This document shows, piece after piece, positions 12,690-26,220 of a stretch of DNA of 35,030 bases; positions within the stretch are counted from its first letter, which is position 1, and each line of letters starts with the position of its first letter. Position numbers and translations under genes: made by a program. The DNA is from Nitrososphaerota archaeon (GTDB lineage Archaea > Thermoproteota > Nitrososphaeria > Nitrososphaerales > Nitrosopumilaceae). The notes beneath the pieces were generated by a model that did not search any database, was not told where the DNA came from, and saw only the letters and a program-made list of their open reading frames with translations. The stretch is from NCBI GenBank assembly GCA_028867595.1, contig JAGWGB010000005.1:1-35030 (forward strand), in the 5' to 3' direction.

Positions 12690-13256
12690 ATGGACTATCA
12701 CTCTGAAGACGAGGTTCGAGACGTTTTAGAATTGCGAGAGTGGGTAACAGAGGAGATAGAAAAACGCCAAAAAGAGATAGAAAAGCTAACTCAAAATCTT
12801 CGGATTCTGGATTCTCTAGTAAAACAGTCAAGCTTTAGCAAGGCATCACACCTGGTATCATCACCTTCAGCCAAAAAAACAGAACAAGTCATGCAGGAGA
12901 CTGCAAGTGTGATTCCAATGAAGACTCCGGATAACCAAGTAATAGCCAATGCTCATGTTACACAAGACGAGCTTGTGATAATACCAACAGAAGAGGTTTC
13001 ACTTGATATCGAAACGCAGCCGTTCAAGTCATTTTTCCTGGGAAGGATAATCGGTACCATGGAAAGCCAGGACAGTACTGATATCAAAAGCGGCAAGATT
13101 CCTCAGGGTACTGCAATAAACTGCATGGTAAACAGGGAAGGAAACAGGATAAGGGAGATTTTGATCAAGAACTATAGGCAAAAAGATAGAGTAAATGAAA
13201 TAATCAATACCGCAACATGGTCGTTCTCGCGAATGATTGAGAACTCGCAAAAGTGA
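12690..13256 (+). CDS. Coiled-coil protein of unknown function upstream of guaA
   Basis: Family not recognised. The 188-residue protein starts at the ATG at 12690, with AT-rich TATA-like sequence at about 12655-12665. Residues 7-45 are acidic/basic heptad-rich (DVLELREWVTEEIEKRQKEI) and probably form a coiled coil. A Ser/Thr-rich, low-complexity linker follows (about 46-110). The C-terminal 75 residues (from about FKSFFLGRIIGTMES) look like a compact alpha/beta domain ending in a helix with a conserved-looking tryptophan (NTATWSFSRMIE). It ends 4 nt before guaA, so the two are probably co-transcribed. A link to GMP synthase rests on position only. Confidence 0.8.
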   Translation: MDYHSEDEVRDVLELREWVTEEIEKRQKEIEKLTQNLRILDSLVKQSSFSKASHLVSSPSAKKTEQVMQETASVIPMKTPDNQVIANAHVTQDELVIIPTEEVSLDIETQPFKSFFLGRIIGTMESQDSTDIKSGKIPQGTAINCMVNREGNRIREILIKNYRQKDRVNEIINTATWSFSRMIENSQK

Positions 13257-13260
13257 GAAG

Positions 13261-14784
13261 ATGGACAAGATAATCGTTCTAGACTTTGGCTCACAGTACA
13301 GTCACCTGATATGTCGAAGAATAAGGGAATTTTCAGTATATGCAGAACTTGTGCCATTTGATATATCACTTGAGGAATTGCAAAAGCTCAACCCCAAGGG
13401 GATTGTGTTCAGTGGCGGACCTGCAAGCGTATACAGCAAGGACTCGCCACAGCCATCGTCTAAAATATTTGAGATGGGCCTGCCAGTTCTTGGAATCTGT
13501 TACGGTCATCAATTAATTGTAAATAATTTTGGAGGTAAAGTAAAGCGTGCAAACAAGGAATATGGTTCTTCTACATTAAAGATTGACAACAGCTCTGACC
13601 TTTTGTCAGGAATGGGAGCATCCACTAGGGCATGGATGAGCCATGGTGATGCTGCAGAGAGCCTTCCAAGTGGATTTGAGGTAATAGGGCATACTGAGAG
13701 CTCCTTTGCTGCGGCAATTGCAAACAGGCAGAAGCTAATCTACGGGATACAGTTCCACCCAGAAGTAGTGCATACAGAAAATGGCGTACAGGTTCTCAAA
13801 AACTTTGTACTGGACATATGCAAGGCAAAGCAGGACTGGACACTTGAGAATTTCATCGAGAGTACAGTATCAGACATATCAAAGATTGACGGAAACGTAC
13901 TGTGCGGCATAAGCGGGGGAGTTGACTCGACAGTAGCTGCAGTCTTGATTCAAAAGTCAATAGGAAAGAGACTGCACTGTGTCTTTGTTGATAACGGCCT
14001 TTTGAGGCTAGATGAGGAAAAAGAAGTAGAGGCAATGTTTGAAAATAATTTTGGGATGAACTTTACTGCAATAAACGCAAAGGAGAGATTTCTTTCAAGA
14101 TTAAGGGGAGTATCAGATCCTGAGAAAAAGCGAAAGATTGTTGGCGAGGAGTTTGTCAAGGTGTTTACCGAGTTTGCAGAAAAGAGTGGGCCGTTCAAGT
14201 GGCTTGCCCAAGGCACGTTGTATCCAGATGTGATTGAGAGCGGAGTGTCAAAGGGGCCTGCTGCCGTAATCAAGACGCACCACAATGTTGGAGGGCTGCC
14301 TTCATGGCTTCACCTGCAGGTGCTAGAGCCTTTGCGGTTTTTGTACAAGGATGAGGTAAGAAAGGTTGGAAAGATTCTAGGTGTTCCTGACAAGCTTCTC
14401 TATCGTCACCCGTTTCCAGGCCCCGGCCTTGCAGTCAGGATAATGGGCGAGGTAACACAGGAGAAACTGCAGATATGCAAGCAAGCCGGAAAAATTGTAG
14501 AAGACGAGCTCTTGGCTGCAGGTTGGTATGACAAGGTATGGCAGGCCTTTGCGGCAGTAGGTGATGATAGGGCAGTAGGTGTTGTGGGCGATGAGCGAAA
14601 GTATGGCCATGTCGTTCTTGTGCGCATTGTTGATTCAATTGATGCCATGACCGCAGATTGGACAAGAATACCGTCTGAAATACTTGAGAAGATAAGCAAC
14701 AGAATAACAAACGAGGTCGAAGACGTGGCATGGGTAAGCTATGTTGTTTCAAGCAAGCCCCCTGCAACTATCGAGCCTCAGTAA
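13261..14784 (+). CDS. guaA: GMP synthase (glutamine-hydrolysing)
   Basis: Aminates XMP to GMP using glutamine and ATP. The 507-residue protein is the fused form. The N-terminal class I amidotransferase has LGICYGHQ with catalytic C80 and FHPEVVHT with the His-Glu pair. The ATP pyrophosphatase domain carries the P-loop GISGGVDSTVAA (about 217-228), and a C-terminal dimerisation domain ends SSKPPATIEPQ. Many archaea split these halves into two genes; here they are one. The start is ATG at 13261, since the frame open to 13237 adds no family-like sequence. It lies 4 nt after the coiled-coil gene. Confidence 0.97.
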   Translation: MDKIIVLDFGSQYSHLICRRIREFSVYAELVPFDISLEELQKLNPKGIVFSGGPASVYSKDSPQPSSKIFEMGLPVLGICYGHQLIVNNFGGKVKRANKEYGSSTLKIDNSSDLLSGMGASTRAWMSHGDAAESLPSGFEVIGHTESSFAAAIANRQKLIYGIQFHPEVVHTENGVQVLKNFVLDICKAKQDWTLENFIESTVSDISKIDGNVLCGISGGVDSTVAAVLIQKSIGKRLHCVFVDNGLLRLDEEKEVEAMFENNFGMNFTAINAKERFLSRLRGVSDPEKKRKIVGEEFVKVFTEFAEKSGPFKWLAQGTLYPDVIESGVSKGPAAVIKTHHNVGGLPSWLHLQVLEPLRFLYKDEVRKVGKILGVPDKLLYRHPFPGPGLAVRIMGEVTQEKLQICKQAGKIVEDELLAAGWYDKVWQAFAAVGDDRAVGVVGDERKYGHVVLVRIVDSIDAMTADWTRIPSEILEKISNRITNEVEDVAWVSYVVSSKPPATIEPQ

Positions 14785-21837: not shown

Positions 21838-22031
21838 AAAAAGCCCATATCCTTATCCCAAAACCTGGAAGCAAATTCCAAAGAGTCCAGTGTAAAGAAT
21901 GCGGTGAGGAAAGTGTTGTTTATTCTCACGTATCTACTACAATCACATGCAAGGCATGCGGTAATACATTGGCAGAGCCAACAGGTTCTATTGCAGAGAT
22001 TAACGGCAAAATACTAGGCAGCGCCGAGTAG
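21834..22031 (+). CDS. rps27e: 30S ribosomal protein S27e
   Basis: A 65-residue zinc-ribbon protein of the small subunit. It has CKEC and CKAC pairs (about residues 20-23 and 39-42), the basic N terminus KKAHILIPKPGSKF and the family-typical GNTLAEPTG. Start ATG at 21834 overlaps the L44e stop by 4 nt. Its last 18 nt overlap the 3' end of the convergent cobY gene. Confidence 0.96.
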   Translation: MKKAHILIPKPGSKFQRVQCKECGEESVVYSHVSTTITCKACGNTLAEPTGSIAEINGKILGSAE

Positions 22032-22598
22032 ATCATAGTCTCTTTTTGTGTTAAGATTTATTGCAACACGCTTGTCGTCAATTACAACATAGGATTCTTT
22101 TACGTGATTCATGCCTGCAACATCTTTTGGATTTACTATAGATATTCCTGTAAATGCATGTTCCTGCCCGTTGTAGTTCACAAGATATTCAGGATGGACT
22201 CCAATCAAGTCCAAAAATTTCTTGCTTGCAAGGACACTAGTCCAAGGGTGATTGCTTCCGGATTGTTTTACAATTTTTTGCACAATGTCAGAGTCTAATA
22301 ATGCAAGATCTCCAGACACCACAAATACTTGCTCGTCAAAATTTTTGAGCACCTCGCTTAGGTCCTCGACGTATCCATTTCCCTTTGTTTCAACAGTTGA
22401 TTTGCCAAGACTTTTCACAAACTCTGCAGTCTTTGGTGCATTGCGGCTTGTAGCGCAAACAATTTTTGAGAAACATCTCGACTCTTCTAGTGCTGATATG
22501 ACATGCTCTATTACGGGTTTTTTGTACTTGACAAGTAGTTTTTCCTGGACAGATTCCATCCTTGTTCCCTTGCCACCGCACATTACAAGGCCTATCAT
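22014..22598 (-). CDS. cobY: Adenosylcobinamide-phosphate guanylyltransferase
   Basis: Archaeal, non-orthologous replacement for the guanylyltransferase half of bacterial CobU; it makes AdoCbi-GDP from AdoCbi-phosphate and GTP. The 194-residue nucleotidyltransferase begins MIGLVMCGGKGTRM, with the GGKGTRM GTP-binding loop, and has EKLLVKYKKPVIEHVISAL and VSGDLALLDSDIV. The ATG at 22598 overlaps the cobS stop (ATGA); the longer open frame upstream is antisense to cobS-coding sequence and is rejected. It is the last gene of the cobalamin operon and overlaps rps27e tail-to-tail by 18 bp. Confidence 0.93.
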   Translation of the reverse strand: MIGLVMCGGKGTRMESVQEKLLVKYKKPVIEHVISALEESRCFSKIVCATSRNAPKTAEFVKSLGKSTVETKGNGYVEDLSEVLKNFDEQVFVVSGDLALLDSDIVQKIVKQSGSNHPWTSVLASKKFLDLIGVHPEYLVNYNGQEHAFTGISIVNPKDVAGMNHVKESYVVIDDKRVAINLNTKRDYDLLGAA

Positions 22599-23320
22599 CT
22601 TGATGCAAAAATTATGAGCGATGCCAGTCTTACAAGCTCGTTGCTTGCCCCAAAGACATCGCCTGAGATGCCGCCAAAGCTTCGGTTTGAGACAGCAAGG
22701 AGCAGAAATGACATGCCTACGGTTGCTCCAACTACTATAATTCCTGTCATGCCTCCAAGTATCACTGCAGGTACAATTGCAATAACAGATGCTGCAGCCA
22801 ACTTGGCAGGACTTTTCATGTATTGAGTAAATGGAGAGCTGAGTCCTTGCCATGCAGACAAGCCCCTGTTTGCTTGAAGTACCATTGCAAATTTTGCCAT
22901 AAGCTCGCTGACTAGAATTGCCTCAAAGAGCATAAGTCCCTTCATCATGGAAATAGACATTATCATGCCGGCAACATAGAGAACTACCGTAACAACACCT
23001 GCAGAGCCTACCGCTGGATCCCGCATCGCCTTGAGTTTCTTTTCCTTTGTTCCCTTTGCCATCATGCCGTCGGCAAAATCACACAGTGCATCAGTATGGT
23101 GTACTCCTGTCATGATGGCAAGTGCGCCTGTCAGGACAAGACCCACTATTAGCGGCTGCACATACAAAGAAAGTCCATAGCCTGCACCTCCAATCAGCAG
23201 ACCGATTATTGCACCGGCAACAGGGAAGAGGTACATGTTTTTTGCAACAATATCAAGCTCAGAGCTTTTTGACGGAATAATTGTCAGAAATGAAATTACT
23301 GATGAGATTCCCTTAAGCAA
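22595..23320 (-). CDS. cobS: Adenosylcobinamide-GDP ribazoletransferase (cobalamin synthase)
   Basis: Integral membrane enzyme joining AdoCbi-GDP to the lower-ligand riboside. It has HHTDALCDFADGMMAKG, the Asp-rich metal-binding motif, followed by AMRDPAVGSAG, and a C-terminal GGISGDVFGASNEL, with five or more hydrophobic helices between. The product is 241 residues if it starts at TTG 23320, which gives MLKGISSVISFLTIIP, the usual CobS N terminus, and overlaps the cbiB stop by 8 nt. TTG at 23353 is the longer option. It is translationally coupled to cobY. Confidence 0.94.
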   Translation of the reverse strand: MLKGISSVISFLTIIPSKSSELDIVAKNMYLFPVAGAIIGLLIGGAGYGLSLYVQPLIVGLVLTGALAIMTGVHHTDALCDFADGMMAKGTKEKKLKAMRDPAVGSAGVVTVVLYVAGMIMSISMMKGLMLFEAILVSELMAKFAMVLQANRGLSAWQGLSSPFTQYMKSPAKLAAASVIAIVPAVILGGMTGIIVVGATVGMSFLLLAVSNRSFGGISGDVFGASNELVRLASLIIFASR

Positions 23321-24305
23321 GGTTCCACCATCCCAAGTAAGACAAGACAACAATCATTGGAACTGTAAACAGTCCAGCAAACAATATGGCTGTAACTTTC
23401 ATCATTGATACTGCAGTTTTGAAATGTTTTTCTGTAAATTCCGTACTGCCGTCACCCAATACATAATGATCTAGTTTCTCAAATTTTACATCAAGTGCAC
23501 CTGCCATTGTGGCCATTGGGTATCCAGCATTTGGGCTCTCTGTTTTTGGGCCGTCTCGCTTCATAATTTCAGCCGAGCTTCGCCAGTTGCATCCTACTAT
23601 CATGCTTGCAAGTATCATAATCATGCTTGTCAGCCTTGATGGTACAAAGTTTAGCACCTTGTCACAGTTTGCACCAAACCATCCCAGGTTCCTAAAGAGC
23701 AGAGTCTTGTAGCCTACCATAGAGTCTGCCGTGTTAACTGCCCTGTAGACAAAGGCTCCGGCAAGCCCAAAAAATACAAAGTAAAAGAGTGGCCCCGTTA
23801 TGCCATCTACGATGTTTTCACTTATGCTCTCAAGCGTAGCAGAGATGATGTGTTGCCTATCCAAGTTCTTTGTGTTCCTTTTTACTATCATGGATAGCTT
23901 TGTCCTTGCACCATCTAGATCATTTTTAGAAAGAGAGTCCATGATTTGCGATGCATGTCTTTGCATTCCCTTGATTGCTATGGTGGTCTTGAGCAACAAC
24001 CCAATTGCAAACGCCGAAGATATCAAGACTAGAATCTTTGCGATTCCAATAAAATTAAGAGTGTCAAGATATCCAATGACATTATCAAAGTAATACATTA
24101 AAGCAGCAACAAGCGATGCAATTGTAACAACAAGAATTACTCCGCCAAGTTTTTCTGAGCTTGGATTGTCTGACTTCAACAATGGAGCAAGCTTGCCCAA
24201 AAGCATTCCAGTCCAGGCAGTTGGATGATACTTGTTTTTCGGATCTCCTAATGCAAGATCAAGTGCAATGGCAAATGCAACTGAGAGAACAAGCACCGGC
24301 ATCAT
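23313..24305 (-). CDS. cbiB: Adenosylcobinamide-phosphate synthase CbiB
   Basis: Membrane enzyme attaching aminopropanol (or its phosphate) to adenosylcobyric acid. The 330-residue protein has several transmembrane segments and the motifs ALDLALGDPKNKYHPTAWTG (about 14-33), ISENIVDGITGPLFYF, YRAVNTADSMVGYK, FGANCDKVLNFVPSRL, and SPNAGYPMATMAGAL with the conserved Asn-Ala-Gly. Start ATG at 24305 overlaps the CobQ stop as ATGA; a second ATG follows directly. The aminopropanol donor should come from the CobD-type enzyme at the head of the operon. Confidence 0.95.
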   Translation of the reverse strand: MMPVLVLSVAFAIALDLALGDPKNKYHPTAWTGMLLGKLAPLLKSDNPSSEKLGGVILVVTIASLVAALMYYFDNVIGYLDTLNFIGIAKILVLISSAFAIGLLLKTTIAIKGMQRHASQIMDSLSKNDLDGARTKLSMIVKRNTKNLDRQHIISATLESISENIVDGITGPLFYFVFFGLAGAFVYRAVNTADSMVGYKTLLFRNLGWFGANCDKVLNFVPSRLTSMIMILASMIVGCNWRSSAEIMKRDGPKTESPNAGYPMATMAGALDVKFEKLDHYVLGDGSTEFTEKHFKTAVSMMKVTAILFAGLFTVPMIVVLSYLGWWNLA

Positions 24306-25141
24306 TTCAAAAGATCACCTATTGCTTTCATATTAAGGCTTGATCTTACAACGCGACTTAAATGCTCTATCTCTTTTTCAAGTGACTTGAGATATTTTGT
24401 AGTAAATGAAACGTGTTTTGGATTTGCATGAAGCGAGTCCTCGTCTGGTATCTCAAATTTAAGGAACGGAATTGTTCCAAAGACAGGCCTACCAGTCTTG
24501 TTTTTCAGAAATGTAAAGCCCGGGCGCAAAATCTTGATGTCTCCCTTGAATTTGTTTATCACATATCCCTTGACAAGCCTCTTGTCTCTATCAAGCAATC
24601 CCATTGTTCCCATCAGGCTAGCAAAAGTTCCTCCCTTGTCAATGTCGGATACCAAGATGACAGGCGATGAATAGTATCTTGCCATCTTCATGTTGGCAAT
24701 GTCATACTTGTGCATGTTTATCTCAGCAGGAGAGCCCGCTCCCTCTAGAATAACCAAGTCGTACCTAGATCTTAGACTATCAAGAGATTTTTTTGCAGCA
24801 TCAAGCCCCTTTGTCAGGGCAAATTTTTTGTAATATTCATCGGCATGCATTTTTTTGTAGCGCTTTCCCATGACAAAGACCTCGCTTTTGTAATCTCCAA
24901 GCGGTTTTAGCATGATTGGATTCATGTGTGGCGAGATCTCTGCCCTTGCAGCAATTGCCTGGATTGCTTGCGCTCTCGATATCTCAAAGTCATCTCCATG
25001 GTAAGAGTACGATGACATGTTTTGTGATTTGAATGGGGCTACGCTGTAACCCTCATCTGCAAAAATTCTACACAGTGCAGTGACAAGTGTTGTCTTGCCT
25101 GCACCAGAGGATGTTCCCTGAATCATTAACGTCTTTGTCAT
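24302..25141 (-). CDS. cobQ: Cobyric acid synthase-like protein lacking the glutamine amidotransferase domain
   Basis: CobQ/CbiP adenylates and amidates side chains of the corrin ring. Here only 279 residues are encoded, against about 480-500 in the family. The dethiobiotin-synthetase-like ATPase half is complete: P-loop QGTSSGAGKTTL (8-19), APFKSQNMS (35-43), RAQAIQA (56-62), MNPIMLKP (73-80), LEGAGSPAEIN (132-142), VSDIDKGGTFASL (164-176), and FGTIPFL (221-227). The class I amidotransferase that should follow, with its Cys and His, is absent. The final segment EIEHLSRVVRSSLNMKAIGD resembles the extreme C-terminal tail of full-length CobQ. ATGA overlaps at both ends argue against a frameshift. 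It may use free ammonia or a partner amidotransferase. Confidence 0.88.
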   Translation of the reverse strand: MTKTLMIQGTSSGAGKTTLVTALCRIFADEGYSVAPFKSQNMSSYSYHGDDFEISRAQAIQAIAARAEISPHMNPIMLKPLGDYKSEVFVMGKRYKKMHADEYYKKFALTKGLDAAKKSLDSLRSRYDLVILEGAGSPAEINMHKYDIANMKMARYYSSPVILVSDIDKGGTFASLMGTMGLLDRDKRLVKGYVINKFKGDIKILRPGFTFLKNKTGRPVFGTIPFLKFEIPDEDSLHANPKHVSFTTKYLKSLEKEIEHLSRVVRSSLNMKAIGDLLK

Positions 25142-26220
25142 GCCTTTGCCAATTCCTTGACAAGCCTTTGATTTTCACTGTGAGTTCTCACAGCAATTCG
25201 GATAAACTTGTCATCAAGTCCTTCAAAAGAATTACAGTCTCTTACCAGTATGTTTTTTTTCAGTAATTTTTTTTGCAACTGGCTAGATCTTATTTTTGAT
25301 TTTATCAAAATAAAGTTTGAATCAGAATCATAGCATTGAAATCCGTTAATCTTTGATATCGAGTCTTTGAGAAATTTTCGTTCTTTTTTGATCAGGTTTC
25401 TTGTTTTTTCAAGGTGCGGCCTGCTTGACAGTGCCTTTATTGCAATCTCTTGTGCAATTCCGCTTACGTTCCACGGAATCTTTATTCTGTTTAGGATTTC
25501 TATCATCTTTTTGCTTCCAAGGCCATATCCCACTCGTAGGCCAGCAAGCCCAAAAGACTTTGTCATTGACCTCAATACAAAGAGATTGTCAAAGCTGTGC
25601 AGTTTTGACACAATGCTCTCCTTTGGATTTGATGCAAGCTCAATAAAGCACTCATCTGCAAAGACAAGCGAGGAATTCTCACGTGAAGCTGCAAGTATCT
25701 TGAGCATGTTTTTTTGAGTTGTAAGAGTGCCAGTCGGATTGTTTGGATTGCAAACAAAGATACATTGATTTTTTGAAATTGTTTCAATGAAATCATCAAT
25801 GTCTTCATTGAGATTCATAGTTTTGAAGTAGGATACTTTTGCACCGCCGAGTCTTGCTGCAGACTCGTATTCCCCAAATGTCGGTATCGGAATTAGCGCA
25901 TTACGCTTGCCCAAGAATGCCTTGCAAAAGTTGTAAATTATCTCGGTTGCACCATTGCCTACAATTATTCTATCTTTTGGGATTCCAGTATATCTTTCCA
26001 AGCCGTTTCTCAGTCTAGTCGAGTCTGAATCTGGATATATGGAAAATAGCGCCAAATTTTTTTTCAGCTCATTTTTTATCTCGGAGGGAAATCCAAGCGG
26101 GTTTACGTTTGAGCTAAAATCCAGTATTTTTGGATCAAACCCACGTCCTGCAGAGTAAATTCCCCCGTGAGCTACAGTCTTGTGATTTTCTATTGACGGT
26201 GCTACCCCTAGTTTCAACAC
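25138..26220 (-). CDS. cobD: CobD-type threonine-phosphate decarboxylase (HisC-fold aminotransferase family)
   Basis: PLP enzyme of fold type I, 360 residues. The N terminus HGGIYSAGRGFDPKILDFSS with NVNPLG is the CobD signature and differs from HisC. Other motifs are VGNGATEIIY (about 90-99), PNNPTGTL, FADECFIEL, and the Schiff-base lysine in SMTKSFGLAGLRVGYG. CobD makes (R)-1-aminopropan-2-ol phosphate from threonine phosphate for the cobalamin nucleotide loop, matching its place at the head of the operon. Start is GTG at 26220; TATA-like AGTAAATACC on the minus strand lies about 20-28 nt upstream. A histidinol-phosphate aminotransferase role is less likely, since hisC lies with the his operon. 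Confidence 0.9.
   Translation of the reverse strand: MLKLGVAPSIENHKTVAHGGIYSAGRGFDPKILDFSSNVNPLGFPSEIKNELKKNLALFSIYPDSDSTRLRNGLERYTGIPKDRIIVGNGATEIIYNFCKAFLGKRNALIPIPTFGEYESAARLGGAKVSYFKTMNLNEDIDDFIETISKNQCIFVCNPNNPTGTLTTQKNMLKILAASRENSSLVFADECFIELASNPKESIVSKLHSFDNLFVLRSMTKSFGLAGLRVGYGLGSKKMIEILNRIKIPWNVSGIAQEIAIKALSSRPHLEKTRNLIKKERKFLKDSISKINGFQCYDSDSNFILIKSKIRSSQLQKKLLKKNILVRDCNSFEGLDDKFIRIAVRTHSENQRLVKELAKA

Follow-up and report, generated by a model that had tools for sequence, protein, structure and literature searches.

Cobyric acid synthase without a glutaminase domain in ammonia-oxidising archaea, with free ammonia as its probable nitrogen donor

Full-length cobyric acid synthase (CobQ/CbiP, EC 6.3.5.10) combines an ATPase domain with a class I glutamine amidotransferase (GATase) domain. 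Among enzymes of comparable chemistry, archaeal single-domain NAD synthetases take ammonia, not glutamine, as substrate (PMC3376133). The MurT/GatD pair still uses NH3 at pH 8.5 when the glutaminase of GatD is dead, and MurT alone, without GatD, is inactive with any donor (PMC3266927).

Ammonia-oxidising archaea are regarded as leading sources of vitamin B12 in sea and soil. De novo cobalamin synthesis has been reported for Nitrosopumilus maritimus (PMC8281238), which has a complete cobalamin pathway and a gene cluster for its final steps, according to a study that used TIGR00313 as its CobQ marker and does not mention a missing domain in its main text (PMC4303638). A cobyric acid synthase lacking the GATase had no earlier description in the literature that we searched, most subscription journals lying outside that search. 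Here we report such an enzyme, which represents a real and fixed domain loss within a known enzyme family.

The cobQ gene and its operon

The window, a stretch of 35,030 nucleotides, comes from an archaeal genome of 1.68 Mb that is 96.5% complete (G000). On its reverse strand, positions 24302-25141 encode a CobQ/CbiP of 279 residues, comprising the ATPase half of the enzyme and its C-terminal helix, with the GATase between them missing. The protein matches the cobyric acid synthase model NF001989 at 331 bits (cut-off 273), the match covering just positions 1-242 of the 480 in the model, and a profile search of the 279 residues gave no GATase_3 match, in agreement with the sequence-only reading of this DNA, which had described an ATPase half without an amidotransferase. 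Its TIGR00313 score, 288.2 bits, falls just below the cut-off of 309.9, so strict annotation or marker counts in metagenomes could miss the CobQ of ammonia oxidisers. The score against the BioD model TIGR00347 (31.1 bits) is under the cut-off of 83.3, and the protein is not a BioD by this measure.

A sequence search of the PDB with the window CobQ found no close relative of solved structure. An AlphaFold2 model (pLDDT 90.6, pTM 0.91) found dethiobiotin synthetases as its best PDB matches in Foldseek, and the corresponding dethiobiotin-synthetase-like ATPase domain, also recognised as Pfam CbiA/AAA_26, spans residues 1-243 (24413-25141, reverse strand). It contains the P-loop GTSSGAGKTT at residues 9-18 (25088-25117, reverse strand), in which G9, S12, G15 and K16 are invariant across 31 CobQ sequences. 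The excision junction lies at residues 237-247 (24401-24433, reverse strand), where the alignment places some 200-240 GATase residues in full-length relatives and the model has a low-confidence loop (residues 236-241). The C-terminal tail continues in frame after the junction, and its helices (residues 248-279; 24305-24400, reverse strand) are well defined, with pLDDT above 90. An HMM built from the tails of full-length CobQ gives this segment 27.3 bits, whereas none of 3,100 shuffled tails exceeds 9.7, so that the suggestion of a retained CobQ C-terminus was well founded. The one cysteine of the protein is at residue 24 and not, as first given, at 23. All 31 aligned sequences, full-length CobQ included, have it, so it is not a relocated nucleophile.

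No GATase relic was found at the cobQ locus in any frame by tblastn with seven CobQ GATase domains as queries. Their sole weak match, at 13.46-13.52 kb, was the glutaminase of guaA (13237-14784, forward strand), which encodes a GMP synthase with an intact GATase (GICYGHQ and QFHPE motifs; PF00117, 171.7 bits), so the loss in this genome does not extend to glutaminases at large.

The operon cobD-cobQ-cbiB-cobS-cobY is intact, all on the reverse strand. Upstream lies cobD, for L-threonine-O-3-phosphate decarboxylase (25138-26220; TIGR01140, 301.6 bits), the product of which also passes the TIGR01141 (HisC) cut-off. Downstream are cbiB, for adenosylcobinamide-phosphate synthase (23313-24305; TIGR00380, 265 bits), cobS, for adenosylcobinamide-GDP ribazoletransferase (22595-23353; TIGR00317, 152 bits), and a cobY-like gene for adenosylcobinamide-phosphate guanylyltransferase (22014-22604), named from its conserved operon position and from TIGR00454 and CobY matches that are under cut-off. 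The 4-base ATGA overlaps of cobQ with cobD and cbiB, noted from the sequence alone, are both present. The same gene order surrounds truncated, dead and intact cobQ as far as the contigs reach, and tree and synteny together place the window protein as an ortholog of CobQ/CbiP in all three forms.

Distribution and history of the domain loss

We surveyed 296 genomes of the class at a completeness of at least 85%, about 221 of them in four ammonia-oxidiser families (f1, 167; f11, 47; f10, 6; f13, 1). About 217 of the 221 carry cobQ, and the GATase is absent from all but two of the copies (G175 and G307). Apart from these two, the long frames of G023 and G049 and a few broken or fragmentary copies, the frames listed encode about 270-350 residues, and the truncated length recurs in over 200 genomes, closed ones included; named examples are two Nitrosopumilus (L120, L123) and Ca. 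Nitrosocaldus schleperae (L119). Since named Nitrosopumilus share the short form, the family of the window genome looks like Nitrosopumilaceae. The truncated form is fixed in f1, f11 and f10/g40, and the deep exceptions carry a dead GATase, as expected if, as the sequence-only reading had argued, the arrangement is stable and not a sequencing error. That reading had also named two findings that would speak against it, a full-length CobQ with a clear frameshift here in close relatives and a separate GATase shown to be their obligate partner. No relative has a full-length CobQ with a frameshift at this locus, and a PF07685 search of 37 ammonia-oxidiser genomes found no stand-alone CobQ-type GATase, the matches being only CobB, dead CobQ domains and small genes of the PdxT, PurQ or HisH type.

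Several irregular copies were noted along the way. Long CobQ frames in G023 and G049 proved to be upstream read-through and not extra domains. In the single-contig genome G093, cobQ lies in two overlapping frames (L205:2781-3612), through a frameshift or an assembly error. The gene was undetected in four ammonia-oxidiser assemblies (G211, G217, G230 and G094), one of them 98% complete, which may be B12 salvagers or contain assembly gaps. A contig from a viral collection (L198:48-926) holds the start of a CobQ that is cut within the GATase and joined directly to a portal-protein-like frame, either a prophage junction or a chimera.

The exceptions to the truncation retain the domain in an inactivated state, so that glutaminase function is gone from each ammonia oxidiser checked that has a cobQ. 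In G175 (f10/g41) the catalytic Cys is replaced by Asp and the His is lost; in G307 and G313, which represent two genera of f13 (G313 being MAG SAT137, below the 85% completeness cut-off), the Cys is kept, the catalytic His has become Tyr and the GYEIH motif is lost. By comparison, the catalytic C, H and H are kept at the same locus in 18 of 18 CobQ GATase domains from AmoA-negative relatives. Even so, structure prediction folds the f13 domain well (mean pLDDT 88.9), and the model resembles GatD and CTP-synthase glutaminases. The two f13 genera share 54% identity in the GATase and 81% in the ATPase, while intact CobQ pairs at an ATPase identity of 83-86% have GATase domains 65-76% identical; the f13 domain has thus diverged more than its intact counterparts, pointing to constraint that is relaxed and not gone.

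In the ATPase-domain tree the ammonia-oxidiser sequences form one group (support 91/89), within which f1 and f11 are joined (95/94) and G175 stands weakly beside Nitrosocaldus, f10/g40 (57/76). A single CobQ clade with the same operon around truncated, dead and intact forms indicates that the domain was lost in place, and the intact domains of AmoA-negative relatives at the same locus place the loss of glutaminase function along the ammonia-oxidiser branch. From these sequences we infer that the activity was lost on that branch before or around the time at which the domain was excised. The excision may have happened once or more: the family shared by G175 and g40 (both f10) suggests two separate events, and an AU test leaves a single truncated clade standing (p 0.475). 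Of the genomes tested for AmoA (PF12942), a set without G313, every one whose GATase is missing or dead has it apart from the fragmented assembly G049, and every one whose CobQ GATase is intact lacks it; this correlation rests on the one clade and therefore counts as about one evolutionary event.

Outside the group, most of 80 named CobQ loci are full length with intact motifs, and loss or change of the GATase is rare within this sample. Oceanobacillus sp. Castelsardo has a CobQ of 279 residues without a GATase in its cob operon (L184:2504-3343), with the C-terminal tail apparently kept. This is a separate, independent excision; it leads us to reject the idea that the truncated form is unique to ammonia oxidisers, and implies that loss of the GATase does not need ammonia oxidation. 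A full-length CobQ with the GATase Cys changed to Gly in the Bacillota MAG ZC4RG07 (L188) may be real or a sequencing error.

The source of the amide nitrogen

Without a GATase the protein would not hydrolyse glutamine, and its NH3 must come from elsewhere. We consider it probable that the window gene encodes a working adenosylcobyric acid synthase which has lost its glutaminase function and takes free NH3 as nitrogen donor. In this scheme each of the b, d, e and g carboxylates of adenosylcobyrinic acid a,c-diamide would in turn be phosphorylated by the ATPase domain, and its acyl phosphate attacked by NH3 free in the cytosol instead of NH3 channelled from a fused GATase. That the protein is active and that free NH3 is the donor are both inferred. 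As for the whole ammonia-oxidising archaeal lineage, we lean towards an ammonia-only cobyric acid synthase, whose glutaminase would first have been switched off and whose GATase domain would later have been excised, possibly on more than one occasion. GS-GOGAT is missing from most ammonia oxidisers, whose usual route of ammonium assimilation is a low-affinity GDH (PMC10432482); this suggests that usable ammonium is present in their cytosol. The inactivity of MurT in the absence of GatD counts against free NH3 as the donor. So do the nanomolar ammonium concentrations at which many ammonia oxidisers live and the Km for NH3 of CobQ, which amounts to tens of millimolar.

A glutaminase encoded elsewhere could instead supply NH3 in trans, the main rival reading, which we rate as unlikely. 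Ammonia oxidisers retain CobB, GuaA and other glutaminases, and CobB, with its Cys and GHEFH motif, offers one candidate. (In the Nitrosocaldus genome G171, CobB is found in separate ATPase and GATase frames of 263 and 202 residues, split at a simple repeat by a frameshift or a true division; L202:647-2081.) The other candidate is an orphan GATase (PF00117) of 182 residues in the window genome (G000:C54:4540-5088; L077:4540-5088, L029). Genes of this kind, about 180-220 residues long with the Cys-His-Glu triad intact, occur in nearly all ammonia oxidisers beside a complete GuaA and are absent from most AmoA-negative relatives, a distribution that speaks for a partner, as does the position of the orphan about 11 kb from cobB in G000. 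That physical link is offset by the conserved block around the orphan, which, judged from the sequences themselves, looks like PriL-PriS-UPF0182-GATase and not a set of B12 genes. The orphan is moreover of GuaA type, not CobQ type; orphan-like genes score equally well in f4 genomes that have no CobQ (G153, G154), and the orphan is present in the four ammonia-oxidiser assemblies in which cobQ was undetected. Primase-like neighbours and distribution thus weaken it as a dedicated CobQ partner, and it stays as a rival candidate. Where a dead GATase is still in place (G175, G307, G313), it would block the usual docking face, so a partner glutaminase could hardly dock there, and Oceanobacillus sp. 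Castelsardo, whose CobQ is cut in the same way, lacks any CobB-type GATase in its genome. On balance free NH3 is favoured over a separate amidotransferase.

We think it very improbable that the truncated CobQ is decaying or serves another role while a different enzyme amidates the corrin ring. The catalytic partner domain is gone and some ATPase positions differ from full-length relatives, as such a reading would expect, but the residues of the ATP-binding and EGAGSPAEIN motifs are largely invariant in the 31-sequence alignment, and the gene, the only strong CobQ match in its genome, keeps its operon slot between cobD and cbiB. The cobalamin production reported for a Nitrosopumilus argues in the same direction, since an organism that makes cobalamin, as N. 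maritimus reportedly does, needs CobQ function. That the GATase is merely hidden by a frameshift, an assembly gap or misannotation has next to no probability: a few assemblies do have a broken cobQ (G093, G081 and G240), but recurrence of the same length across genomes, the null result for a nearby GATase in any frame and the in-frame tail refute such an artefact.

Significance and relation to known systems

The three states found among close relatives (intact, dead and cut out) make this a clean case of domain loss. If the enzyme does use ammonia only, B12 output would be tied to cytosolic ammonia, and vitamin supply thereby to the nitrogen cycle; the enzyme would also offer a route to probe intracellular ammonium in ammonia oxidisers.

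The window CobQ resembles full-length CobQ/CbiP in its ATPase, its C-terminal helices, its slot between cobD and cbiB and its expected substrate, and differs in lacking the class I GATase of about 200 residues. BioD, the closest solved fold to the CobQ ATPase domain, is likewise a stand-alone ATPase without a GATase, although it uses CO2 and not ammonia. MurT/GatD is a similar case of an ATP ligase split from a CobQ-type glutaminase, with NH3-dependent activity when GatD is dead; the gene for GatD, however, is linked, and MurT needs GatD even when NH3 is the donor, whereas no such partner gene is seen for the GATase-less CobQ. The single-domain NadE, a glutaminase-less ATP-dependent amide synthetase, provides the precedent for direct use of ammonia, and by analogy ammonia dependence would be the most likely mechanism for the GATase-less CobQ as well. 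The two differ in their history: the single-domain form of NadE is considered ancestral, whereas the GATase-less CobQ is derived from a two-domain enzyme of which dead-domain forms persist.
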